Assembly (NCBI GenBank): GCA_040743155.1
Contig: JBFLJU010000001.1
Span: 62,001 to 126,000 of the forward strand
DNA: 64,000 nt
Direction of reading: 5' to 3'
Origin: Cycloclasticus sp.
GTDB taxonomy: Bacteria; Pseudomonadota; Gammaproteobacteria; Methylococcales; Cycloclasticaceae
Part shown: piece after piece, positions 16,350-28,707 of the stretch
Layout of the letters: every line of letters starts with the position of its first letter
Position numbering within the stretch: position 1 is the stretch's first letter
Program-made: the position numbers and the translations under genes
The notes under the pieces: model-generated
The model's database searches: none
Told to the model about the DNA's origin: nothing
The model's input: only the letters and a program-made list of their open reading frames with translations

Positions 16350-17111
16350 ATGATGAGAATTTACAAAAAACTGACTGCAATGTTGGCAGCAGCAATGTTA
16401 GTAACAGGCTGTGCAACTGTTGAAACAGAAAGTTGGCAAAATTGTGCGATTGGCGGTGCCTTACTAGGCGGTGCCGCGGGTGCATTTGTTGAGGGTGCAA
16501 CAGAAGTGGCAGTTGGAGCAGTTGTTGGTGGTACTATCGGTGGTTTGATTTGTGGGGATGCGGCTGAAGCAGTGGCACCTGGAGCTGAGCCAGATACGGA
16601 TAGTGACGGGGTCGTAGATAGCCGTGATGAATGTCCAAATACACCTGTAGGGGCAACGGTTGACATGAAAGGTTGTACGTCAGATTCAGATGGTGATGGC
16701 GTTGCTGATTATAAAGATCAGTGTCCTAACTCGGTGCCGGGTGCAAAAGTTAATGCATTAGGCTGTGCCGAAGCGCTTGTGTTAGACGGTGTTAATTTCC
16801 ATACGGCGTCAGCGGAGCTTACGGATTCTGCGAAGGCTATTTTGCTTCCAATTGCTAGAGCCCATCACATGCATCATGCAGACGTGAGTTTAGTTATTGA
16901 TGGGCATACCGATTCGCAAGGATCAGATGCCTATAACCAAGATTTATCTGAAAGGCGTGCAGCAGCGGTTCGCTCCTTTATGATTACGCATGGCTGTGAC
17001 GCTGATAAACTGTCAACGGCTGGTTATGGCGAAAGTAAAGCAATAGCGGATAATGACACATCAGAAGGCCGTGCTAAGAACCGTCGTGTTGAGATGAGTG
17101 TTAACGAATAA
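16350..17111 (+). CDS. OmpA-family lipoprotein with calcium-binding-type repeats, copy 2
   Basis: A 253-residue paralogue of the preceding gene with the same order of parts: signal peptide and lipobox LVTGC, glycine-rich hydrophobic stretch (about 30-68), two Asp-rich type-3 repeats (DTDSDGVVDSRDECP, DSDGDGVADYKDQCP), and an OmpA C-terminal domain with GHTDSQGS and NRRVEM. It is separately transcribed, with its own promoter and terminator. The two proteins are nearly collinear over their whole length and differ mainly in the hydrophobic stretch, so the pair may have diverged in how they sit in the outer membrane. Confidence 0.9.
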   Translation: MMRIYKKLTAMLAAAMLVTGCATVETESWQNCAIGGALLGGAAGAFVEGATEVAVGAVVGGTIGGLICGDAAEAVAPGAEPDTDSDGVVDSRDECPNTPVGATVDMKGCTSDSDGDGVADYKDQCPNSVPGAKVNALGCAEALVLDGVNFHTASAELTDSAKAILLPIARAHHMHHADVSLVIDGHTDSQGSDAYNQDLSERRAAAVRSFMITHGCDADKLSTAGYGESKAIADNDTSEGRAKNRRVEMSVNE

Positions 17112-17175
17112 CGCGTAGCACAATATAGAAAGTAGGTGCCGGTCAGCTAAGCATTGATCTGGTACTTAATGTTTG

Positions 17176-17209
17176 AAAAAGAGTAGCCTAATAGGCTGCT
17201 CTTTTTTTT
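17176..17209 (+). terminator. Intrinsic terminator after second OmpA gene
   Basis: Stem GAGTAGCC / GGCTGCTC (one G-T pair), loop TAATA, followed by eight T residues. Confidence 0.88.
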
Positions 17210-17317
17210 GGAAGCTCATGAGCCGATGAATTGGCCGCCATTATGTCGGCGATAACTTGCTGAACCATTAGTAGCGCAGTTCCCCAAGGCTAGCGGTTAG
17301 CTTTATTTACTGTAGGG

Positions 17318-17334
17318 TGCGACAATTTGTCACA
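17318..17334 (+). promoter_or_regulatory. Inverted repeat upstream of TonB receptor, candidate operator
   Basis: TGCGACAA-T-TTGTCACA is an inverted repeat with seven of eight arm positions matched, 60 bases before the receptor start codon and overlapping a possible -35 (TTGTCA). This is the position and shape of a repressor site; the regulator is unknown. Confidence 0.4.
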
Positions 17335-17393
17335 TTCTAATTAGTACATAAGTCGGTAGGATTGCTTAGTTATAAAAAATAAAAAAGGATTTT

Positions 17394-19442
17394 ATGAAGC
17401 ATCTTAAGTTAAGTTTATTGTCCGCCGCGATGATGTCGCTGTCAGTTAATGCCGCAGATTACACTAATCAAACCATTATTGTTGAAGGTAGCCTAATGCG
17501 GCCAGGTACGTTTGGTATTGCTCCAGACTCTTTAGCGTTAAAAGATACGGCCTCTTTATTAAAACGTATCCCAGGTGCCAACGTTAACCGTAATGGCCCG
17601 TTGACAGGTATAGCCTCTTATCGTGGCCAATTTGGTAGTCGAGTAAACTCTGTGGTCGACGGGATGTCTTGGAAGGAAGTTGGCCCGAACAGCATGGATC
17701 CCCCGTTAAGCCATATTCCAGCTGCGTTAACTGATAACTTAACTGTGTATAGAGGGATTGCGCCTATTAGTAGCGGCATTGAAACCATTGGCGGCACAAT
17801 GATCGCAGAATCTCGTAAAAGTAAATTCACGGACAGTAGTGAATTTGAACTTCATGGCTTAGCTTCTTTAGGCTATAGCGAAGCGGATAATGGTTTAACC
17901 AGTAGTGTGCTGGCTAGCTATGCGAATGACAGTCATCGATTTCACGCGAGTATGAGCCAAGAGCAAGGCGATGACTATGAGTTTGATGGCAGCAAATCAG
18001 TTGACCCAAGCCAGTATGATCGTGATGCCTACACCGTTGGGTATGGTGCAAAACTTGGTGCACATGAATTAGGGTTTAACTACAGTAATAACGATACAGG
18101 TCATACAGGTTCGCCCTCGTTACCGATGGATATTATTTGGGTGAGAGGCGGCATATTCTCAGCTGATTACAATATTCAGCTTGGAGATTCGCGCTCACTG
18201 GAAGTGTCTTACTATTATCAAGATATGCGCCATTTGATGAATAACTTCACATTGCGTACAGCTGGCATGGTTATGCAGAATTTAACTACAGTTGATGGCG
18301 GTGGCTTATCGGCTGTTTATCAGGTGCCATTATCTGGTGGTGAATTAAGTTTAGGTCTTGAAGGGGATCTGTCGACACATGATGCAACGGTGACAATGTT
18401 CGGCATGATGGATATGGATACGACGATATTCAAGGGTGCTGAGCGTAATCGGTACAGTGTTTTTGGTGAATGGAAGGGTGTTGTTCAACAAGGACTAGAA
18501 CTGGAGATGGGTCTACGATATACGCAGGTGGAGATGGATTCAGATGAGGTTAGTTCTGATATGGGAATGTTGAGCGGTTTGGTTTCAAGTTTTAATGCCA
18601 GTGACTTGTCCCAAACAGACCACAACTGGGACTTTGATGCCATCTTAAGGAAGACGCTATCAAGCGAATTAACAGCAGAAATTGGGTTTGCACGAAAAAC
18701 ACGTTCGCCATCATATCAAGAGCGCTATTTGTGGAGTGCTCAAGAAGCAACGGGAGGATTGGCTGATAACAGAACCTATATTGGTGACGTGAACTTAGAC
18801 CCAGAGACAGCGTATCAATTTGAAGCGGGCTTGGAGTATGCCGCCAATGGTTTTTATGTTGCGCCGCGGGCATTTTATCACCGCGTAAATGACTATATCC
18901 AAGGCAAAGAAATTTTTGGAACGACAGCTAATATGGTGAAAGGGATGATGTCGGGTGATTCAATAGTCCTTCAGTTCACTAATGTAGACGCTGAGCTTTA
19001 TGGTATGGATGTTGAGTGGGGATACGAAATGAGCGGTGACTGGCGTTTAGACGGTACAGTGAGTTATGTGCGAGGTCGTCAGCGAGATAACGGCGGCGAT
19101 AATCTTTACCGTATAGCACCGCTTAACGCACGTACGCAGCTAACGTATGCACAAGACAGCTGGTCTGTTGCAACAGAAGTTGAAATGTATTCTGCGCAAA
19201 ATGATGTGGCTGATTATAACGGTGAGATGAAATCAGCGGGCTATGGTTTGCTTCACCTCCGTGGAGAAACTCAACCGATAGCGGGCTTGAATATTGGTTT
19301 GGGTGTGGAAAATGTTCTAGGTAAAGATTATGCGGACCATACCGCTGCCATCAATAGGGCGATGGGTTCTGATGTATCTACTGGCGATAAAGTGCCAGGG
19401 CAAGGCAGAAATGTATACATAACAGCCAGCTATGAGTGGTAA
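17394..19442 (+). CDS. TonB-dependent outer-membrane receptor (copper-receptor-like plug)
   Basis: A 682-residue TonB-dependent receptor. A signal peptide ends near residue 20 (VNA); a likely TonB box (TIIVEG) follows, then a plug domain (about 40-145) and a beta barrel ending in an aromatic residue (ASYEW). The plug carries NSMDPPLSHIP, similar to the MDPP segment of OprC/NosA-type copper receptors, and the barrel is unusually rich in methionine (for instance MFGMMDMDTT and MVKGMMSG). I infer a metal or metallophore substrate, with copper the first guess; a lanthanide complex is conceivable given the PQQ enzyme 9 kb away. It is monocistronic, with an inverted repeat before it and a terminator after it. 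Confidence 0.85.
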   Translation: MKHLKLSLLSAAMMSLSVNAADYTNQTIIVEGSLMRPGTFGIAPDSLALKDTASLLKRIPGANVNRNGPLTGIASYRGQFGSRVNSVVDGMSWKEVGPNSMDPPLSHIPAALTDNLTVYRGIAPISSGIETIGGTMIAESRKSKFTDSSEFELHGLASLGYSEADNGLTSSVLASYANDSHRFHASMSQEQGDDYEFDGSKSVDPSQYDRDAYTVGYGAKLGAHELGFNYSNNDTGHTGSPSLPMDIIWVRGGIFSADYNIQLGDSRSLEVSYYYQDMRHLMNNFTLRTAGMVMQNLTTVDGGGLSAVYQVPLSGGELSLGLEGDLSTHDATVTMFGMMDMDTTIFKGAERNRYSVFGEWKGVVQQGLELEMGLRYTQVEMDSDEVSSDMGMLSGLVSSFNASDLSQTDHNWDFDAILRKTLSSELTAEIGFARKTRSPSYQERYLWSAQEATGGLADNRTYIGDVNLDPETAYQFEAGLEYAANGFYVAPRAFYHRVNDYIQGKEIFGTTANMVKGMMSGDSIVLQFTNVDAELYGMDVEWGYEMSGDWRLDGTVSYVRGRQRDNGGDNLYRIAPLNARTQLTYAQDSWSVATEVEMYSAQNDVADYNGEMKSAGYGLLHLRGETQPIAGLNIGLGVENVLGKDYADHTAAINRAMGSDVSTGDKVPGQGRNVYITASYEW

Positions 19443-19475
19443 ATAGCGGGTTCCAACTTCATTGATGGATGTGGA

Positions 19476-19504
19476 GAGCCCAAGTGAAAACTTGGGCTTT
19501 TTTG
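19476..19504 (+). terminator. Intrinsic terminator after TonB receptor
   Basis: Stem AGCCCAAG / CTTGGGCT, loop TGAAAA, followed by T residues. Confidence 0.9.
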
Positions 19505-19611
19505 TGCGTAAATATTGCTGTAAGAATAAGCTTAAATGATACGGTCAACTGCTTCAAACTTAGGGTTGAAGCAGTAAAGTCATAGCTTGCGTGATATTTA
19601 TCTTCATTAAC

Positions 19612-19654
19612 CTAACTTTTGTTTGACGATGGAAAAAGATGATGTTTCTATAGA
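19612..19654 (+). promoter_or_regulatory. Promoter module of first alcohol dehydrogenase
   Basis: CTAACTTTTGTTT (dyad-like core AACTTTTGTT at 19614-19623) is followed 35 bases later by a -10-like TATAGA (19649-19654). The same core and spacing occur twice upstream of the extradiol dioxygenase at 24116. No good -35 hexamer is present, which is typical of activator-dependent promoters. Confidence 0.45.
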
Positions 19655-19719
19655 GGGTAAATACAGACTTTATTGGATGTTCGTTTTTTATAATTTAAAA
19701 GCAATTAAGGAGAGAGTAT

Positions 19720-20823
19720 ATGAAGATTGAAGCTGCGGTGGTTCGCGAGGGTAAAGGAGATTTCAAAATTGAAACTCTAGAGTTAGCAGAGCCATCTGAT
19801 GATCAAATTTTAATTAAAATTGTGGGTGTGGGCTTGTGTCATACCGACTTAACCTGTCGTGATCAGCTTTATCCAGTGCCTCTGCCTATGGTGTTTGGTC
19901 ATGAAGGCTCTGGTGTAGTAGAAAAAATTGGTAAAAATGTAACTAAGGTTGAGCCAGGTGATCACGTGGTTTTAACTTTTTATACCTGTGGTACATGCGA
20001 TGCGTGTTTAACGGGTGACCCGACTAGTTGTGCAAACTCTTTTGGCCCTAATTTCATGGGACGTGCGGTGGATGGTAGCTGTACGATTCACGACCATGCT
20101 GGCGATGAAGTAGGTTGTAGCTTCTTTGGCCAGTCCTCATTTGCTAGCCATGCGCTTGCCTACGAGCGTAACACCGTTAAAGTACCTAAAGATGCTCCTC
20201 TTGAGCTGCTTGGCCCATTAGGTTGTGGTGTTCAAACAGGGGCGGGTTCAGTATTAAATGCGTTAAACCCACCAGCGGGTAGTGCTATTGCTGTTTTTGG
20301 TGCGGGCGCGGTTGGTCTGTCAGCAGTGATGGGCGCAGTTGTGGCAAATTGCACAACGATTATTTCAATTGATGTTAAAGAAAACCGTTTGGAGTTGGCT
20401 AAAGAACTAGGGGCGACACATACCATTAATGCAGCAGAAGTTGACCCAGTTGAAGAAATCCAAAAACTAACTGGCGGTGGCGGTATTGCTTATGTGCTTG
20501 AAACAAGTGGTGTTGCACCTGTTTTGAGTCAAGCAATCATGTCATCTTGCGTGGGCGGTGAAATTGGTATCGTGGGTGCGCCAGCGATGGGAACAACGGT
20601 TCCTCTGGATATTAACTTCATGTTATTTAACAGAAAATTACGTGGTATCGTTGAAGGTGAATCAAACTCTGACATCTTTATTCCGAGATTGATTAGTCTT
20701 TACCAGCAAGGTAAATTCCCGTTTGATAAATTAGTTAAGTTCTATGATCTTGACCAAATCAATGAAGCGGCGGCTGACTCAGAAAAAGGAACGACGCTTA
20801 AAGCGATTTTACGAATTAAGTAG
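19720..20823 (+). CDS. Zinc-dependent aryl/benzyl alcohol dehydrogenase (XylB-like), copy 1
   Basis: A 367-residue medium-chain NAD(P)-dependent alcohol dehydrogenase. Catalytic-zinc residues are Cys40 and His61-Glu62; the structural-zinc cysteines are Cys90, Cys93, Cys96 and Cys104. The segment [14 protein letters not shown] and the Rossmann motif [12 protein letters not shown] are characteristic of the benzyl-alcohol (XylB) group, which oxidises aromatic alcohols to aldehydes. An AAGGAG ribosome site precedes the ATG, and a terminator follows, so it is a single-gene unit. A close paralogue lies at 26089, on the other side of the oxygenase genes. Cofactor choice is not certain from sequence. 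Confidence 0.9.
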
Positions 20824-20843
20824 TCAGTATTAAGTTGACGATT

Positions 20844-20877
20844 AAAACCGGAGCAGGTATTTGGCTCCGGTTTTTTT
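20844..20877 (+). terminator. Intrinsic terminator after first alcohol dehydrogenase
   Basis: Stem AAACCGGAGC / GCTCCGGTTT followed by seven T residues, about 20 bases after the stop. Confidence 0.9.
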
Positions 20878-20944
20878 ATGCCTATTACTTTTGGCTGAGT
20901 TTTAAAGCAAGTTGCGTTTTTAACATAAGAAATGGAGAGCAAGT

Positions 20945-22135
20945 ATGTCAGTTAACGAAGGAGCTGATGCCACGATAAAGTGGCCAGCAAAAACAAACCA
21001 TGTGCCGAAAGAAGTATTCGAGAAAGAAGGCTTGTGGGAAAAAGAGTTAGAAGCTATTTTTTATGCAGAAGAATGGCATCCCATCGTTCATCGTGCAGAA
21101 ATTCCTGAACCAGGGGATTACAAAGCGGCGCAAATAGGTGAAATTAACATTTTTGCGGTGCACGGCAATGATGGGGAGATAAGGGTTTTTCAAAACACCT
21201 GCACTCATCGGGGTACGTCGTTAGTAACGGAAAGCTCTGGCAATAAAAAAGAGTTTGAGTGTCCCTATCACCGTTGGTTGTTTAGTTTGGAGGGTGAGTT
21301 GGTCGGTTGCCCTAATAGTCGCGAGTTTTCGCCAGATTTTGATGTAAAAGATTATGGCCTAATGACATTACGTGTAGAAGAGTTTTATGGTTTGTACTTC
21401 GTCACGATGAGCGATAAGACGCCAGCCTTGAAGGAATATTTTGGTAAAAGTTTTTATGAGCCTTTGCAGCGACTCTTAGGTGGTGACGGCCGCTTGAATT
21501 TGATTGGCTATCAAAAGGTTACATACGACTGTAACTGGAAGGCTTATTGCGATAATGATGGCTACCATGGAGCCTTATTACATAAAGCGTTTGCGATGTT
21601 AAATTGGCAAGGAGGTAAGGGAACACAAATTGTGACGGAAAACGGGCACTTGTGCTTCGATTCTGAGCTAACGATTCCTGATAAAGTAGATGCTCTGGAA
21701 GATGGCTCAATTCTTGATTTTAAAGGGACGGAAACCAGCAATGGTTCTATTGTGTTGATGTCATTCCCGATAACGGTCTATACCAAGCACATGGATATGT
21801 TAAATATTCGTTATTCTTTCCCTAAAGGCACTAAAGGGGTTGAGGTTCATTATGCGTATTTCTCACATCAAGACGATGATGATGAAATGGTCAGGCATCG
21901 CGTCCGGCAGTCGAGTAATTTATTAGGCCCTTGTGGTTTAATCAGCATGGAAGATGCCTCGGTTTTTTCACGTATCGATAAGGGCAATAAAACTCATGGT
22001 AACGCTATTTTTCAAAAAGGCGTTAAAGATGAATACGCTATCCCATTAGCTGTTGGGCAGACGGATGAAACAGGGAATTTGGCTCGTTGGGAGCGTTATA
22101 GAGCACTAATGGGTTTTGAAAGGAGTCCAGCATGA
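20945..22135 (+). CDS. Rieske aromatic ring-hydroxylating oxygenase, large subunit
   Basis: Catalytic alpha subunit (396 residues) of a Rieske non-haem iron oxygenase that adds oxygen to an aromatic ring. The Rieske centre is Cys86-x-His88 and Cys106-x2-His109, with the usual 17-residue gap. The mononuclear iron site is His208 and His213 in DGYHGALLHKAF with the third ligand at Asp337 (SMEDASVF), and Asp205 is the bridging carboxylate to the neighbouring Rieske centre. It overlaps its small subunit by 4 bases (ATGA). No ferredoxin or reductase gene is nearby, so electrons must come from elsewhere. Close context with a XylM-like enzyme suggests a benzoate- or alkylbenzoate-like substrate, but this is inference; it is shorter than most naphthalene-type subunits. 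Confidence 0.92.
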   Translation: MSVNEGADATIKWPAKTNHVPKEVFEKEGLWEKELEAIFYAEEWHPIVHRAEIPEPGDYKAAQIGEINIFAVHGNDGEIRVFQNTCTHRGTSLVTESSGNKKEFECPYHRWLFSLEGELVGCPNSREFSPDFDVKDYGLMTLRVEEFYGLYFVTMSDKTPALKEYFGKSFYEPLQRLLGGDGRLNLIGYQKVTYDCNWKAYCDNDGYHGALLHKAFAMLNWQGGKGTQIVTENGHLCFDSELTIPDKVDALEDGSILDFKGTETSNGSIVLMSFPITVYTKHMDMLNIRYSFPKGTKGVEVHYAYFSHQDDDDEMVRHRVRQSSNLLGPCGLISMEDASVFSRIDKGNKTHGNAIFQKGVKDEYAIPLAVGQTDETGNLARWERYRALMGFERSPA

Positions 22136-22620
22136 AAAAAGTTTCGTTAGCTAATAAAAAACTCATTGAAGATTTAAATAGTGACTATATCAGTGCGCTA
22201 AATGACTTTAATATGGATAACTGGTTGCGCTGCTTTAGCGAGCAAGGGCAGTATATTTTGAACTCTGAAGAGAACGTGCGTAGAGGTCTGCCAGTTGCGT
22301 TTATGTTGGATGATTGTTATGCACGGTTGAAAGACCGGGTAAAGCAAGTGATGGAGATTCAATACGACTCATCTGAACATTATCAGATGCGCCATTTCAC
22401 CCAGCTGATCTCTGTTGCAGAGCAAGCCGATGGTAGCTTTCAGGCGAGCCATAACTTGTCTGTTTATTACACTCCCAAAGATACGCATCAAACGGCAACG
22501 CTTTGTGTGGGAAGCTATAAGGACACCATCGTGATAGAAAATGAAGAAGCTAAGTATCTGAAGAAACTAGCGGTTGTTGATACCAATGTGTTGCCGCGTT
22601 ACGTTATCTACCCTGTTTAA
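22132..22620 (+). CDS. Ring-hydroxylating oxygenase, small (beta) subunit
   Basis: A 162-residue SnoaL/NTF2-fold protein matching the beta subunits of aromatic-ring dioxygenases in size and pattern: an N-terminal helix containing the DWxxCF-like DNWLRCF stretch and a C-terminal strand pair ending in VIYPV. It has a structural role in the alpha3-beta3 hexamer and carries no catalytic metal site. The ATG overlaps the alpha stop by 4 bases, which is strong evidence for partnership. A long hairpin follows. Confidence 0.9.
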   Translation: MKKVSLANKKLIEDLNSDYISALNDFNMDNWLRCFSEQGQYILNSEENVRRGLPVAFMLDDCYARLKDRVKQVMEIQYDSSEHYQMRHFTQLISVAEQADGSFQASHNLSVYYTPKDTHQTATLCVGSYKDTIVIENEEAKYLKKLAVVDTNVLPRYVIYPV

Positions 22621-22638
22621 ATTAAGTTAACCAACGTC

Positions 22639-22666
22639 ATTGGGCCGGTGTTTCCACCGGCCCAAT
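22639..22666. terminator. Perfect 12-base-pair hairpin between convergent genes
   Basis: ATTGGGCCGGTG / CACCGGCCCAAT with loop TTTC lies between the convergent small-subunit and XylM-like genes. It has no clear T run on either side, so it is a probable but weak two-way terminator. Confidence 0.5.
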
Positions 22667-22693
22667 TTGGTCTCTCGAGGACTTTAAAACACC

Positions 22694-23818
22694 TTAGGTG
22701 CTTGCAATGTCGATGGGCTCTTCGATGTCTTCCCCGAGCCAGTCCGGCCAGCCAGCGGCCTTATTTGCTTCTCGTGCGAGAACCCTTTCTTCAGGTGTGG
22801 CGCGGGTCAAATCCCATTCTTTTAGTTTTGGCTGTGCGTAAAACTTAAACCAAATGGGTGGGATTAACGCCGCATTAAAGGATAGAAACATACTGGGGCC
22901 TTGTGGGCCATCTGGATTTGGCTTTAATTCATAAAAGGGGATGTATGAGTCTAGGTGGTGATCATTATGGTTTGAAATTTCATAAGCGAGCGGGCGAATA
23001 ATATAGGATAAATGATTCCAAATATGACGTGACTCGTAGGGCTTACCAATAACGCGGACTAGACCGTTATGTTGGAAATAGTTAAAGCCTTCGGCGAATA
23101 ATTTTGCCAACATTAAAGCGATAATGGTCATGCCCATTGCATAAATGCCACCAAACCAAGTCACGACGCCTATGAGTACCGAGACTTGAACGATCGCGCG
23201 GACTAATCGACCGGTGGGTGACCAGATGCTTTTATTGGTCTTTTTGCACATCTCACGTTCTGCGTGGATGAAGTCTTTATAGCTGCCAAATGAGGCTCTA
23301 AACATGTAACTGTAAATTATCTCACCCCGTCTAGCGGTATCAGAGTCCTCCGGTGTGGCAAGATTTATGTGGTGGTTATGGATATGAGCGACATCCCGCG
23401 TTGGGTCTAAGAAAAAAGTGCCAAGCAATGTGGCGAGGTAGCGGCCAAAATCTCTGCGGTGCATTAGCTCGTGGGTGACGGGCACATTTGGCATCGCGCC
23501 TAGAAGTCCCAATGAAAATACAGCGCCAATCATATCTATCACTGGAATAGAGCCCGATGCTTGAACGGTCGTATTGATCCAATGTACGAAGGCAGTATAC
23601 AAGGCAATCATAATAAACAAGTGGAGGTAAAGAGGGATGTTGACGATAAAAGGATGGTTTATTTTACGCATGTTAAGGTCAGGTTTTGCTAGTACATCCA
23701 GTAGTGTGATGGGCATCAGCAAGCCAATGCCAGTCCAAACCCAATGCCCTCCTTGTGTAAAGCCTAATATGGCAATACAAACAATTGCCGTGCCAAAGTA
23801 ATATCGTAAATAATCCAT
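22694..23818 (-). CDS. XylM/AlkB-like membrane di-iron hydroxylase
   Basis: Integral-membrane monooxygenase of the fatty-acid-desaturase superfamily, which hydroxylates methyl groups of alkyl-aromatics (XylM, CymAa) or alkane termini (AlkB). The eight-histidine signature is visible: HELMH (116-120), HIHNHH (145-150), QHNG (His250) and HNDHH (284-288). The asparagine-containing second and third boxes and overall length fit the xylene/p-cymene group better than AlkB. About six hydrophobic segments lie before and between the boxes. I place the start at 23818 (374 residues) because GGAGGA sits seven bases upstream; an earlier in-frame ATG at 23860 has no ribosome site. The reductase partner (XylA type) is absent here. 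Confidence 0.85.
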   Translation of the reverse strand: MDYLRYYFGTAIVCIAILGFTQGGHWVWTGIGLLMPITLLDVLAKPDLNMRKINHPFIVNIPLYLHLFIMIALYTAFVHWINTTVQASGSIPVIDMIGAVFSLGLLGAMPNVPVTHELMHRRDFGRYLATLLGTFFLDPTRDVAHIHNHHINLATPEDSDTARRGEIIYSYMFRASFGSYKDFIHAEREMCKKTNKSIWSPTGRLVRAIVQVSVLIGVVTWFGGIYAMGMTIIALMLAKLFAEGFNYFQHNGLVRVIGKPYESRHIWNHLSYIIRPLAYEISNHNDHHLDSYIPFYELKPNPDGPQGPSMFLSFNAALIPPIWFKFYAQPKLKEWDLTRATPEERVLAREANKAAGWPDWLGEDIEEPIDIAST

Positions 23819-23887
23819 GCTATTCCTCCGTTGAAATGTGATGTTTCTTATTTTGACCAAAAATTAAGCTACCACAGCGCACAGTAG

Positions 23888-23935
23888 ATAACTAACATTT
23901 GTTTTAATGATTGTGAGCAATGACATCAGCATTAT
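23888..23935 (+). promoter_or_regulatory. Promoter module P1 before the extradiol dioxygenase
   Basis: The dyad AACATTTGTT (23894-23903) is followed 36 bases later by a -10-like CATTAT (23930-23935). The dyad centre would be near -43 from the likely start of transcription, the position of a class II activator. Confidence 0.42.
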
Positions 23936-24002
23936 TAGTCGGCTGTTGAAAAGTGACTGTTGTCATTTTGTCTGGATATTAAGCTGTCGCACCGCATTCA
24001 AA

Positions 24003-24049
24003 ATAACTAACATTTGTTTAATTAGTGTGAGCAGTGGCATCAGTATAAT
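24003..24049 (+). promoter_or_regulatory. Promoter module P2 before the extradiol dioxygenase
   Basis: The dyad AACATTTGTT (24009-24018) is followed 35 bases later by a perfect -10 TATAAT (24044-24049) without a recognisable -35. It is the better of the two copies and the nearer to the gene; transcription would start near 24056. Confidence 0.5.
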
Positions 24050-24115
24050 CAGTTTCTTTTTATATAGGTGTCATGCTAAACAGGACGTTAGGCATTACTA
24101 CTGAAGGGGAATTAA

Positions 24116-25042
24116 ATGATCAGATATAAGAAACTGGGTTATGTGGCTCTCGGGGTTACAGACCTCGAAAAATCAATTAGCTACTACCGCGACCTAATCG
24201 GTTTACAGCTTAACCATCAAGAAGATGGTGTGGCTTATTTCACGTGTAGTGACGACCACCATAACCTTGTGCTATATCAGAGCGCAGTGGCTGGCTTGCA
24301 ACGTATTTCTTGGGAAGTAGAAAGTGACGCCGAGCTAGATAATGCTGCTGAAACATTTAAAAAACATGGGCTCGACGTTTATGAGTTGCCGGAAGAAGAA
24401 AGTGCGGCAATATTCCAAGCGCGCACCTTACGTTTTATAGAGCCGAATGACGGCATTTGCTTCGAGCTGTATAGCCAGCAATATAAGCGAGCTGATCCGT
24501 TTAAAGCCACAGTTAGCAAAATTGCGCGTTTAGGCCACGTTGTCGTTAGCTTTTCTGACTGGCATGCAACGATTAAGTTTTTCAGAGACGTGATGAACTT
24601 TGATACCTCCGATTCGATTGATGGGTTTATTAATTTTATGCGTTGTTTCCCTAATCCTTATCACCATACCTTTGGTGTTAGTAGCGCCAAATTAAGAGGT
24701 GACAGGCCTGGTTTACATCACGTGAACTTTATGGTGACAGACATGGATGATATTGGCCGTGCATTGAATAGATTGCCGGAAAATGATATTCCTATTGTGT
24801 TTGGTCCTGGACGTCATCCACCATCGGGTAGTATTTTTTATTACTTTCTTGACCCCGATGGAATGACAGTTGAGTACAGTTTTGGTATGGAAGAATTTCC
24901 AGAGCATAATCCACGTAAGCCACGCTCATTAGAGCCACGTCCAGATTCGGGGGATTACTGGGGCGGGCTGCCCAAAGAAGACTGGGCCAAAAGAGGTGAC
25001 ATACTGCCCGCCAAACCACAATTAATAGGTAAGTTGCTTTAG
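24116..25042 (+). CDS. Extradiol ring-cleavage dioxygenase, type I (VOC fold)
   Basis: A 308-residue two-domain vicinal-oxygen-chelate protein of the catechol 2,3-dioxygenase class, which meta-cleaves a catechol with Fe(II). The N-terminal domain begins LGYVALGVTDLEKS, and the catalytic C-terminal domain begins near residue 138 (RLGHVVVSF). Iron ligands are His141, one of His201/His202 (GLHHVNF) and Glu253 (MTVEYSFG), in the right order and spacing for the family. The final 50 residues are hydrophilic. An AAGGGG ribosome site precedes the ATG, downstream of the duplicated promoter module. A decarboxylase-like amidohydrolase follows 27 bases later, so it may cleave a carboxylated catechol. Confidence 0.88.
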   Translation: MIRYKKLGYVALGVTDLEKSISYYRDLIGLQLNHQEDGVAYFTCSDDHHNLVLYQSAVAGLQRISWEVESDAELDNAAETFKKHGLDVYELPEEESAAIFQARTLRFIEPNDGICFELYSQQYKRADPFKATVSKIARLGHVVVSFSDWHATIKFFRDVMNFDTSDSIDGFINFMRCFPNPYHHTFGVSSAKLRGDRPGLHHVNFMVTDMDDIGRALNRLPENDIPIVFGPGRHPPSGSIFYYFLDPDGMTVEYSFGMEEFPEHNPRKPRSLEPRPDSGDYWGGLPKEDWAKRGDILPAKPQLIGKLL

Positions 25043-25069
25043 TTATTGCGACTTAGCTAGTCGTTTAAA

Positions 25070-26062
25070 ATGATTATTGATGTACATACTCATGTCGTAC
25101 CTGAGAGCTTTCCTGCGTACAGCGGGAAAAATTTAGACGCACGGTGGCCGTCAATGGGCTGTTGTGACCAACCTCATCACCGTGCGGTTTTAATTGGAGG
25201 CAAAACCTTTCGCGAGGTGAGTCACCAGTGTTGGGACGTAGCTCAGCGCTTGTCGGATATGCAAGCAGAAGGGGTTAGTCGGCAAGTATTATCACCAATG
25301 CCCGAGTTGTTATCTTATTGGTTTGACATTGATGATGCCATCCGCATGTGTGCGCACATTAATTCGAGTATTGCTCATATGGTGAGCAGTTCGCCGAATG
25401 ACTTTTACGGCTTAGGCATGGTGCCCTTGCAAGACCCTGAACGAGCAGCCGAAGCAATGTCGCGGTTACGGGATGAGTATGGTTTAGTTGGGATTGAAGT
25501 GGGTACCAATATTAATGGTCGGCCTATCGGTGATCCATTTTTTGAACCTATCTTTGCCGCAGCCGTTAAGCATGATTTATCCATTTTTATTCACCCGCTG
25601 CACCCTGCGGGTGTTGAGCGTATTGTAGGCCCAGCCGCAATGTCTGCGTTGGTTGCCTTTCCAAATGAAACGGCTTTCGCCGCAGCGTCCTTAGTCAGTG
25701 GCGGCATGTTAACTAAGTACCCAGAACTACGAGTGGGCTTAAGCCATGGCGGCGGAACATTTGCTTTAATGCTGCCACGGATGATGCACGGCTGGAAAAC
25801 TATGGGTAACCATTTGTTTAATGAGTCACCGATTGAGATCGCTAAGCGGCTTTATTTCGATACCTTGGTGTACGACAACGAGACCCTTAAATACCTCATC
25901 AAATCATTCGGTATCAAGCAGTTGATGCTGGGTTCTGATTACCCTTTTGTTATTCGCGAAAAATCACCCGGCAAGCGAATACAGTCATTAGGGCTAAATG
26001 AGCAAGAGATGGCGCTATTGCTATCAAAAAATGCACTGCGCTTTTTGGGCAGTGTTAAATAA
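25070..26062 (+). CDS. Amidohydrolase, ACMSD-like decarboxylase
   Basis: A 330-residue metal-dependent amidohydrolase of the 2-amino-3-carboxymuconate-semialdehyde decarboxylase (ACMSD) branch. Metal and catalytic residues align closely with ACMSD: His6-x-His8, His175 (IFIHPLHP), catalytic His226 (GLSHGG) and Asp290 (LGSDYPF). Relatives decarboxylate ring-cleavage products or hydroxybenzoates (gamma-resorcylate, 5-carboxyvanillate). Directly behind the extradiol dioxygenase, it probably removes CO2 from a carboxylated meta-cleavage product. Its leader lacks a strong ribosome site, and it sits 27 bases from each neighbour, so translation is probably from a polycistronic message. Hydrolysis rather than decarboxylation remains possible. 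Confidence 0.85.
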   Translation: MIIDVHTHVVPESFPAYSGKNLDARWPSMGCCDQPHHRAVLIGGKTFREVSHQCWDVAQRLSDMQAEGVSRQVLSPMPELLSYWFDIDDAIRMCAHINSSIAHMVSSSPNDFYGLGMVPLQDPERAAEAMSRLRDEYGLVGIEVGTNINGRPIGDPFFEPIFAAAVKHDLSIFIHPLHPAGVERIVGPAAMSALVAFPNETAFAAASLVSGGMLTKYPELRVGLSHGGGTFALMLPRMMHGWKTMGNHLFNESPIEIAKRLYFDTLVYDNETLKYLIKSFGIKQLMLGSDYPFVIREKSPGKRIQSLGLNEQEMALLLSKNALRFLGSVK

Positions 26063-26088
26063 TGTTAACCCAACTTAGGAATCAATAA

Positions 26089-27189
26089 ATGGAAATTAAT
26101 GCGGCTATTGTGCGAGAAAGTAAAGGTGAATTTAAACTGGAGTCTCTTGAGTTAGCAGAACCTTCAGCTGATCAAATTTTAGTAAAAATAGTAGCCGTGG
26201 GGCTTTGCCACACAGACTTAACTTGTCGTGATCAAGCATACCCAGTCCCTTTGCCAATGGTTTTCGGGCACGAAGGCTCTGGTATTGTCGAGAAAGTTGG
26301 CGCCAATGTAACGAAGGTAGAGCCAGGCGATCACGTGGTTCTTACATTCTATACCTGCGGCCATTGCGAGGCGTGTTTGAATGGTGAACCTGCACGTTGT
26401 GAGGCAGCGTTTGAACCGAATTTTTTAGGCAAAGCTGTTGATGGGAGTTGTACGATTCATGACCACTCAGGTGATGAAATTGGCTCCAGCTTCTTTGGAC
26501 AATCATCTTTTGCCAACTATGTGCTTTCTTACGAGCGCAATACAATAAAAGTGCCTAAAGATGTGCCTCTGGAGCTATTGGGCCCCTTAGGCTGTGGCGT
26601 GCAAACAGGTGCAGGTTCGGTCCTTAATGCGTTAAACCCTGCTGCGGGTAGTGCCATTGCTATTTTTGGTGCCGGTGCCGTTGGCCTGTCAGCGGTGATG
26701 GGCGCTGCGGTCGCTAACTGCACAACAATTATTGCCATTGATGTTAAGGAAAACCGTTTAAAGTTGGCGAAAGAACTCGGTGCCACTCATGTCATTAATG
26801 CCGCTGAAATGGATCCGGTTGACGAAATTAAAAAATTGACCGGTTCAGGGATAGCGTATGTGCTTGAAACCAGTGGTGTGCCGGATGTGTTGGTTCAAGC
26901 GATTACTTGTTCAAAACCTGGGGGCGAAATAGGTATCGTTGGTTCGCCGGCGCTAGGTGTGACGATACCGGTAGATGTTAGCTTTATGTTGGATAACCGG
27001 ACTTTGCGAGGCATCATCCAAGGGCAGTCTAATTTTGATGTTTTTATTCCTCGCTTAATCGAGTTGTATAAACAAGGTAAGTTTCCATTTGATAAATTAA
27101 TAACATTTTATGAATTCGACCAAATTAACCAAGCGGCGGCGGATTCCGAGAAAGGTAAAACACTTAAGGCGGTGATGCGAGTTAAATAA
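26089..27189 (+). CDS. Zinc-dependent aryl/benzyl alcohol dehydrogenase (XylB-like), copy 2
   Basis: A 366-residue paralogue of the protein encoded at 19720, collinear except for one deleted glycine in the GGGG/GSG loop. Zinc residues are conserved (Cys40, His61-Glu62; Cys90, Cys93, Cys96, Cys104), as is [12 protein letters not shown]. It should oxidise an aromatic or related primary alcohol to the aldehyde. It is 26 bases after the amidohydrolase and thus the last gene of the dioxygenase-decarboxylase-dehydrogenase transcript; a terminator follows. Why the locus keeps two is unclear: different substrates or different regulation are both possible. Confidence 0.9.
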
Positions 27190-27212
27190 AGCACGAGTAG
27201 TTGCTGCTAAGG

Positions 27213-27239
27213 CCGAGGTGTTAAAGCCTCGGTTTTTTT
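27213..27239 (+). terminator. Intrinsic terminator after second alcohol dehydrogenase
   Basis: Stem CCGAGG / CCTCGG with an 8-base loop and seven T residues. Confidence 0.87.
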
Positions 27240-27297
27240 ATACCTAAAATTTATATGAGAGATTTGAGGCAGGTTGTTATCGACTGCTATCATGATT

Positions 27298-27321
27298 TAC
27301 TAGTTAGGTCGCGAACTAGTA
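27298..27321 (+). promoter_or_regulatory. Perfect inverted repeat upstream of FadL-type gene, candidate operator
   Basis: TACTAGTT (27298-27305) and AACTAGTA (27314-27321) are perfect inverted arms separated by 8 bases. A -10-like TATAGT lies at 27340-27345, so the right arm overlaps the -35 region. The arrangement fits a dimeric repressor or activator controlling the channel. Confidence 0.48.
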
Positions 27322-27393
27322 GTATGCTTAGGATAGTCGTATAGTTTAACGCTGAGTAGTTTCCATATCTAAAAAAAACAAGAAGGGGAATGT

Positions 27394-28707
27394 ATGCAGT
27401 TGTTGGTTGTTCCATTGCGAAGTGCGCTAGTGTGGGCTGTTATTCTAATGTGTGTGCTTTCCAATAATGCTTTTGCAGGCGGCGGGTATTTTTCCCTCGG
27501 TTACGGGCACGTCGCGAAACAAACCGCAGGAGCGGTAACGGCTGTTGCGGAAGATGCGTTTGCAGGCGCGTCTAACCCGGGAAAGTTGACGGCGGCAGGT
27601 AACCAATTCGAAGTGGGTGCAGAACTATTTAACCCTCATCGAAAAGTAAAACGCAGCGATTCCGGTACGCCGTTTGATTTCTCATCAAACAGTCGGAATT
27701 CCTTTTTTATCATTCCCGAATTTGCTTTTTCACACCAACTAGACGATACCTTAGCAATCGGCATAACGGCGTATGCAAATGGGGGCTTGAATAGCGAGTA
27801 CGCGAATACCACAGAGGTTCCTGGAACCAATGCTAACCCAGCTGAATGTGGGGCGAAACAGGGTAACTTTTTTACCGGCTGTGATGAGGCAGGGTTTGAT
27901 TTAGCTCAATTAATTATCGCGCCGACGATTGCATGGGAGTTTTCCCCTGGTTATAGCTTTGGATTTTCCCCGTTGATTGCTTTGCAGCGATTTGAAGCGT
28001 TTGGTTTGCACGGGTTTGCTCCGTTATCAAAATACCCTGATAAATTAACAAATAATGGCCATGATATTGCTTTTGGTGCAGGCGTTCGTGTGGGTTGGTA
28101 TGGTGAGGTGAGGCCTTGGTTATCGCTAGGTGCTGCTTATTCGTCGAAGGTGTATATGCAAGAGTTTGATAAATATAAGGGGCTCTTTGCCGAAGGCAGT
28201 TTTGATATACCCGCTAATTACAGTATTGGCGTGGCGATGCGGCCCAATGTTGACTGGATTATTGCACTGGATATACAGCGAGTAGAATTTTCTGAGGTGA
28301 AAGCTCTGGGCAATAGCGTATTGAATTCGTTGTCGCCAAGTGCGCCACCCATTGGCAGTGATTCAGGAAGTGCATTCGGTTGGCAGCGCAATCAAACAAA
28401 TTATAAGTTGGGTGCGACTTATATTGCGTCGTCTCAGTTAACATTAAGAGCCGGTTACGCCTATGGCGAGAGGCCGAATGATAATGATATTAATGCCACG
28501 AGTTTTAGTTTATTGACGCCTAACCCGATACATCAAGCAAGTATTGGCTTGAGCTGGAAAAGTGAGCATGGCGATGAGCTGCACCTTGGTTTTGAGCATT
28601 ATTTCAAGGAAACATACCGTGGTCCTTCTGCTCTTTTTCCCGGCGCGAGTGAATCTTTGACGCCTTACGTCAATGCGTTCCACATCGCTTATACATGGGC
28701 CCTATAG
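27394..28707 (+). CDS. FadL/TodX-family outer-membrane hydrophobic-compound channel
   Basis: A 437-residue outer-membrane protein of the FadL/OmpP1/TodX/XylN family, which carries long-chain fatty acids or aromatic hydrocarbons across the outer membrane. The signal peptide ends at AFA near residue 28. The mature protein starts GGGYFSLGYGHVAKQTAGAV with the family's NPA-like region as AFAGASNPGKL. The barrel follows, with an aromatic-rich end YTWAL. Location directly after the aromatic block suggests uptake of the aromatic substrate, as with TodX and XylN. It is monocistronic with a strong AAGGGG ribosome site and abuts the convergent thiE gene by two bases. Confidence 0.85.
   Translation: MQLLVVPLRSALVWAVILMCVLSNNAFAGGGYFSLGYGHVAKQTAGAVTAVAEDAFAGASNPGKLTAAGNQFEVGAELFNPHRKVKRSDSGTPFDFSSNSRNSFFIIPEFAFSHQLDDTLAIGITAYANGGLNSEYANTTEVPGTNANPAECGAKQGNFFTGCDEAGFDLAQLIIAPTIAWEFSPGYSFGFSPLIALQRFEAFGLHGFAPLSKYPDKLTNNGHDIAFGAGVRVGWYGEVRPWLSLGAAYSSKVYMQEFDKYKGLFAEGSFDIPANYSIGVAMRPNVDWIIALDIQRVEFSEVKALGNSVLNSLSPSAPPIGSDSGSAFGWQRNQTNYKLGATYIASSQLTLRAGYAYGERPNDNDINATSFSLLTPNPIHQASIGLSWKSEHGDELHLGFEHYFKETYRGPSALFPGASESLTPYVNAFHIAYTWAL

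Follow-up and report, generated by a model that had tools for sequence, protein, structure and literature searches.

CRP/FNR-family boxes and PrfA/FNR-type boxes are 14-bp dyads with a 4-bp spacer. In Cycloclasticus P1, the CRP/FNR proteins DPR-1 and DPR-2 activate PAH dioxygenase operons together with c-di-GMP, and that regulation paper (PMC8547461) concerns PAH operons. The regulation of non-PAH aromatic clusters in the genus appears to be little described. Here, we analyzed a window of 64,000 nucleotides (the whole stretch of DNA under study) from the 2.56-Mb genome of an oil-degrading marine Cycloclasticus and characterized an element between two divergent genes of an aromatic cluster. No description of this operator was found in the open-licence PMC literature, as judged by titles and the starts of abstracts.

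The gene order around the sites is a TonB-dependent receptor, ADH1, oxygenase alpha and beta subunits, FAD on the opposite strand, EDO, amidohydrolase, ADH2, and a FadL/TodX-type porin. The genes closest to the sites are as follows.

19720..20823, plus strand: ADH1, a zinc-type alcohol dehydrogenase
20945..22620, plus strand: ring-hydroxylating oxygenase, alpha and beta subunits
22694..23818, minus strand: FAD, a membrane enzyme of the fatty-acid-desaturase family, divergent from EDO
24116..27189, plus strand: extradiol dioxygenase (EDO), amidohydrolase (AmH) and second alcohol dehydrogenase (ADH2)

The genes from the oxygenase through FAD, EDO and the amidohydrolase to ADH2 (20945-27189) form a module inserted between ADH1 and FadL. 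In genomes G007 and G009, FadL is the next gene after ADH1 among those tested. The two alcohol dehydrogenases are ~79% identical, and the closest named relatives of EDO in the EDO search were from Cycloclasticus. No regulator gene was found among the 37 annotated of the window's 68 listed open reading frames (ORFs), and we therefore take the regulator to be encoded elsewhere. In two Porticoccaceae contigs carrying relatives of EDO, no adjacent regulator was seen among 10 annotated ORFs (two of them without a family). The FAD/EDO gap had no copy on known plasmids. A known RNA element was considered and rejected, with 0 Rfam matches within 17000-28000.

The FAD/EDO gap contains the element ATAACTAACnnnnGTTA, with the core dyad CTAACnnnnGTTAG, which is conserved in four genomes and stands twice in the window.

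23887..23907, plus strand: operator copy 1, GATAACTAACATTTGTTTTAA (score 21.0), which includes a 10-mer at 23894-23903
24002..24022, plus strand: operator copy 2, AATAACTAACATTTGTTTAAT (score 19.9), which includes the 10-mer at 24009-24018

The best score among reversed-sequence controls was 16.9. All four FAD/EDO gaps have AAATAACTAAC in common, and none of 1,000 shuffles reached 11 bases (maximum, 8); the 12-mer common to the window and G016 as a pair is less rare (14/1,000 shuffles). The genomes are not independent, as parts of G001 and G016 closely resemble each other. The arms AATAAC-N8-GTTATT are perfect in the three relatives (G001, G002 and G016), and the right arm is degenerate in the window copies, which keep three of five arm pairs. 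Written as CTAACN4GTTAG, the dyad covers 14 bp with a 4-bp spacer and has three to four of five arm pairs in 12 sites. The distance from the nearest copy to the start codon is 63 to 78 nt for FAD and 104 to 119 nt for EDO. Genome-wide, the full site-based patterns were no commoner than their reversals and thus give no sign of a large regulon.

The two operator copies belong to the two halves of a diverged tandem duplication of ~115 bp.

23821..23939, plus strand: first copy of the duplication, with 87 of 118 columns identical between the copies
23936..24053, plus strand: second copy of the duplication, borne out by the length of the gap relative to that in related genomes

The duplicated segments comprise 84 bases at 71% identity (spacing, 115) and 37 bases at 81% (spacing, 114). 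The longest identical run between the copies is 20 bases and spans the operator (P = 0.038 by permutation); it is longer than scattered mismatches predict, a mild sign that both operator copies may have been kept. The FAD/EDO gap of the window measures 297 bp, and subtracting 115 leaves 182, which matches the gaps of 182 (G002), 183 (G016) and 188 bp (G001); the three relatives thus represent the single-operator arrangement. The center of copy 1 is 78 nt from the FAD start codon (63, 69 and 73 nt in the relatives) and that of copy 2 is 104 nt from the EDO start codon (119, 114 and 115 nt), so that FAD and EDO each own one copy near the ancestral distance. Two putative −10 hexamers lie in the duplicated region.

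24044..24049, plus strand: TATAAT, possible −10 of EDO, with CATTAT (23930-23935) as its counterpart in copy 1
23863..23868, minus strand: CTTAAT, possible −10 of FAD, 25 nt from the 10-mer, as read from the sequence

CTTAAT is repeated in the second duplication copy (23978-23983), and at that distance from the motif it is absent from the FAD/EDO gaps of the relatives.

The preliminary description of this region had centered on the 10-mer AACWTTTGTT, as a recurring site 35 to 36 bases before a −10-like hexamer at three places. The letters and spacings are exactly as claimed: start to start, AACTTTTGTT at 19614-19623 is 35 bases from TATAGA at 19649 (ADH1 site), AACATTTGTT at 23894-23903 is 36 bases from CATTAT at 23930 (EDO site 1), and AACATTTGTT at 24009-24018 is 35 bases from TATAAT at 24044 (EDO site 2). 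The two EDO sites are not separate instances, being the products of the one duplication, and the 10-mer is only part of the conserved FAD/EDO element, with inner letters that vary between the gaps of the relatives. Nor is the motif above chance in the genome, where AACWTTTGTT has 18 copies versus 24 for the reversed pattern, and where 13 of these copies fall within ORFs of 80 amino acids or more; on these counts, a 10-mer regulon was rejected. The five copies outside ORFs are the three described, one before a gene that we take to be rpoB-like from its N-terminus, and one with no downstream gene assigned. Allowing one mismatch, the window has 15 copies versus 20.1 expected. Of 300 shuffled pairs of the ADH1 and FAD/EDO gaps, 11% contained a same-strand match as good as the 12/13 observed, and 97% contained a 9/10 match. 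When hexamers with at least four of six matches to TATAAT were counted at 40 offsets from the 18 genomic copies, offset 35 was the commonest (6/18) and offset 37 was the runner-up (5/18); the six copies with offset 35 include two of the described sites, three inside ORFs and the one before the rpoB-like gene. A scan of the plus strand for consensus promoters predicted none overlapping either EDO site. Most likely, the "three promoters" are one duplicated site and one coincidence, at ADH1, an illustration of how a striking threefold motif can shrink.

Upstream of ADH1, a different sequence is conserved.

19592..19654, plus strand: ADH1 upstream block, TGAT..TTTGACGA..GAAAAAGATGATG..TATA, gapless in six genomes
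19623..19628, plus strand: TTGACG, a −35-like hexamer of ADH1, 20 bp before TATAGA (19649-19654) and invariant in six orthologues

This block of ~63 bases holds the 10-mer in an ungapped alignment of six orthologous promoters. Of the 23 columns from TTTGACGA through GATGATG, 19 are invariant, compared with 6 of 10 in the 10-mer; two of the six orthologues retain the C of its AAC and five the G of its GTT (TTTGACGA itself is kept in all six). The earlier statement that no −35 can be seen does not hold for ADH1, where TTGACG is invariant, and TTGACG and TATAGA, 20 bp apart, may form a long-spacer promoter. The block occurs without mismatch in 6 of 18 genomes of the genus, each time with ADH1 downstream, and with two mismatches in two further genomes, inside ORFs. 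It is single-copy, and the GAAAAAGATGATG spacer between TTGACG and TATAGA is conserved. In G007 and G009, no oxygenase, FAD, EDO, amidohydrolase or ADH2 was found next to ADH1, and the top EDO matches anywhere in these genomes are 26 to 27% identical. As the block is present there without the module, the promoter belongs to the TonB-ADH1-FadL arrangement, independently of the aromatic module. The operator matrix gave scores of at most 8.6 on the ADH1 gaps of six genomes, versus 19.9 to 22.6 for the FAD/EDO sites. The ADH1 and EDO promoters do not have the same conserved element, and ADH1 was rejected as a member on account of its different block and these scores.

We scanned 26 loci (506,939 bases) with matrices of the operator, using 1,012,890 positions as controls. 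A matrix made only from FAD/EDO sites found the oxygenase promoter in two relatives, G002 and G016, whose sites were reached by 6 and 7 control positions, respectively. The corresponding region of the window is given below.

20824..20944, plus strand: ADH1-oxygenase gap, with the operator present in G002 and G016 and absent here (best score, 1.0)

The gap is 208 bp in G002 and 207 bp in G016. When the second Rieske promoter (see below) was included in training, the G016 oxygenase site scored above every control and the G002 site scored above all but six. The chance of such an oxygenase match is ~0.002 to 0.003 per gap (two strands), a figure that serves only as a guide because the gaps are related and the scan was wider. 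The oxygenase sites were first seen in the 26-locus scan, and their test is therefore partly after the fact. With a score of 1.0, the present genome has lost the oxygenase operator. The weaker fourth site proposed before the oxygenase does exist in its letters (TACTTTTGGC near 20886 and TAACAT near 20921) but is not conserved in the relatives, and it was rejected as an operator member for this reason and for the low score of the gap.

The second Rieske promoter emerged from G000, where four sequences fit the footprint pattern with no more than two mismatches, one before a Rieske oxygenase (identified by Pfam), one inside an ORF and two outside. The genes that follow this oxygenase are presumably SDR-like, GST-like and second-oxygenase-like, as named by their N-termini. 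The element is conserved in five genomes, as TACTAATTAACGTTCGTTAG in G001 and G009, as CACTAACTAACATTCGTTAT in G000, and as one-base variants of TACTAATTAACGTTCGTTAG in G002 and G016. With the FAD/EDO-only matrix, the G000 site was reached by 1 control position and those of G001, G009, G002 and G016 were reached by 46, 46, 428 and 340, respectively. As such scores are expected by chance at two to three per million positions, the standing of this site rests on its place and conservation. It lies 63 (G000), 68 (G002) and 67 nt (G001) from the start codon. The five promoters have a −35-like TAGACA (TGGACA in G009) 17 bp before TTTACT (TTCACT in G000 and TGTACT in G009), a putative −10 that the operator overlaps or abuts. 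Weaker matrix matches occurred at L269:15405 and L269:7602 (G009) and at L261:8310 (G000).

A similar sequence, CTAACnnnnGTTTT, precedes an outer-membrane-protein gene of the PAH cluster, with AAC-N4-GTT in four and CTAAC in all of six orthologues. By the FAD/EDO-only matrix, the sites in G001 (16.7) and G002 (15.9) scored above every control, and those in G000, G014, G009 and G017 were reached by 31, 27, 313 and 850 controls, respectively; by the all-site matrix, all six genomes fell inside the control range. This site was met among many scanned gaps and is therefore a lead only, which leaves the probabilities given below unchanged.

Upstream of the outer-membrane-protein gene G000:2317717-2319777: CAACnnTGTTGTAAAA dyad and GTATAAA, conserved in six genomes (L206-L211)
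17318-17334, minus strand: palindrome TGTGACAAATTGTCGCA, before the TonB receptor at 17394

On the opposite strand, a CTAACnnnnGTT-like element lies immediately next to the −10-like GTATAAA and is a candidate operator member. The palindrome TGTGACAAATTGTCGCA also stands before a TonB gene in G001, G002, G007 and G009 (twice in three of them), and in G016 it follows an argG-like gene close to the end of a contig. It occurs at four places in the window genome, including before a second TonB receptor and before an outer-membrane-type protein, and the reversed controls totaled 2 over six genomes. The best NCBIfam match of the receptor at 17394 was TonB-copper, below the cutoff. The palindrome is a candidate marker of a small envelope or metal-uptake regulon.

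On balance, we think it probable that the FAD/EDO operator is common to several aromatic units, was duplicated in this genome, and is bound by a putative dimeric regulator, most likely for repression. The operator ATAACTAAYnnnnGTTA, built on the core dyad, would be recognized by a dimer encoded elsewhere and would also serve other aromatic transcription units of Cycloclasticus, at least two in number: the cluster oxygenase (through a site retained in two relatives and lost here) and the second Rieske-oxygenase operon. The ~115-bp duplication would have copied a single ancestral operator, giving FAD and EDO one each at roughly the ancestral distance. The operator is most likely a repressor site, which we infer to be relieved by a pathway compound. 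At the oxygenase, the operator center and the start codon are only ~40 nt apart, a stretch that also holds the ribosome site. Unless the start codon is itself the transcription start, the operator must thus either overlap the core promoter or lie downstream of it, and this placement makes a repressor likelier than a class II activator. The position of the second Rieske site over or next to a putative −10 likewise favors repression. On the EDO side, where TATAAT is downstream of the operator, activation would be compatible with the arrangement. If the duplication has acted in this way, two operators, one per gene and 115 bp (~11 helical turns) apart, could permit separate control or cooperative looping. 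The shared aromatic-regulon operator of the preliminary description is plausible for the EDO element, which relatives retain and which resembles sites upstream of other ring-hydroxylating-oxygenase genes, but does not extend to ADH1 or the fourth site.

The same evidence bears on other explanations. It is highly improbable that a class II activator drives three or four promoters (ADH1, EDO twice, and the oxygenase) from AACWTTTGTT at about −43. The spacings of 35 to 36 to a −10-like hexamer are real, and offset 35 is the commonest among the genomic copies; however, two of the sites amount to one duplication, the fourth is not conserved, and at ADH1, which has TTGACG, the orthologues preserve TTTGACGA better than the motif and carry their block in G007 and G009 without the adjoining oxygenase, FAD and EDO. 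Furthermore, at 35 to 36 bases from the motif, G001, G002 and G016 have GAAGAAG, CTTGGGT and TTGAGTT among them, with no −10, so that a class II site near −41.5 at a fixed −10 distance was not observed. That the FAD/EDO element is strictly local, and resembles the oxygenase and second Rieske sites only by chance among AT-rich promoters, also strikes us as unlikely. In favor of a local operator are the genome-wide counts, at or below those of reversed controls, and the held-out scores, which for several sites are no higher than those of the best controls. Against it, only 6 and 7 control positions reach the oxygenase sites, and the second Rieske element is itself conserved in five genomes.

We regard it as quite doubtful, too, that the operator is the CRP/FNR-family activator box of DPR-type c-di-GMP regulators. 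The dyad has the shape of that family, each of six genomes has four to seven HTH_Crp_2 matches, and the similar element before the outer-membrane-protein gene is in the PAH cluster. DPR-1 and DPR-2 do activate dioxygenase operons in P1, according to PMC8547461. On the other hand, TTAACN4GTTAA, which precedes a dpr-2-like gene in G000, was not found in four orthologues, and an activator at −41.5 would need more room before the start codon than the oxygenase site has. Set against the DPR box, a shared but repressing operator remains our preferred reading, and we offer as a tentative extension of it that an undescribed regulator-operator pair (CTAACnnnnGTTAG) coordinates several ring-hydroxylating-oxygenase operons, and maybe the PAH-cluster outer-membrane-protein gene, apart from DPR/c-di-GMP, with the duplication having split a shared divergent operator. 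The conserved sites offer compact probes with which the missing regulator can be sought.

Compared with PrfA/FNR-type boxes, the operator has the same 14-bp dyad and 4-bp spacer (here, TAACnnnnGTTA), but it lies near start codons, which suggests repression. Its dyad spacing also fits the family of DPR-1 and DPR-2. The likeness to these proteins further includes the genus and the control of ring-hydroxylating dioxygenase operons, whereas the named DPR targets are PAH operons, which are not equated with this cluster (PMC8547461). As with shared operators in divergent catabolic promoters, a dyad between divergent genes has been kept while the rest of the gap drifts; here, by contrast, no regulator is adjacent among the annotated ORFs and the operator has been duplicated, which makes this genome a natural example of a shared divergent operator being split.
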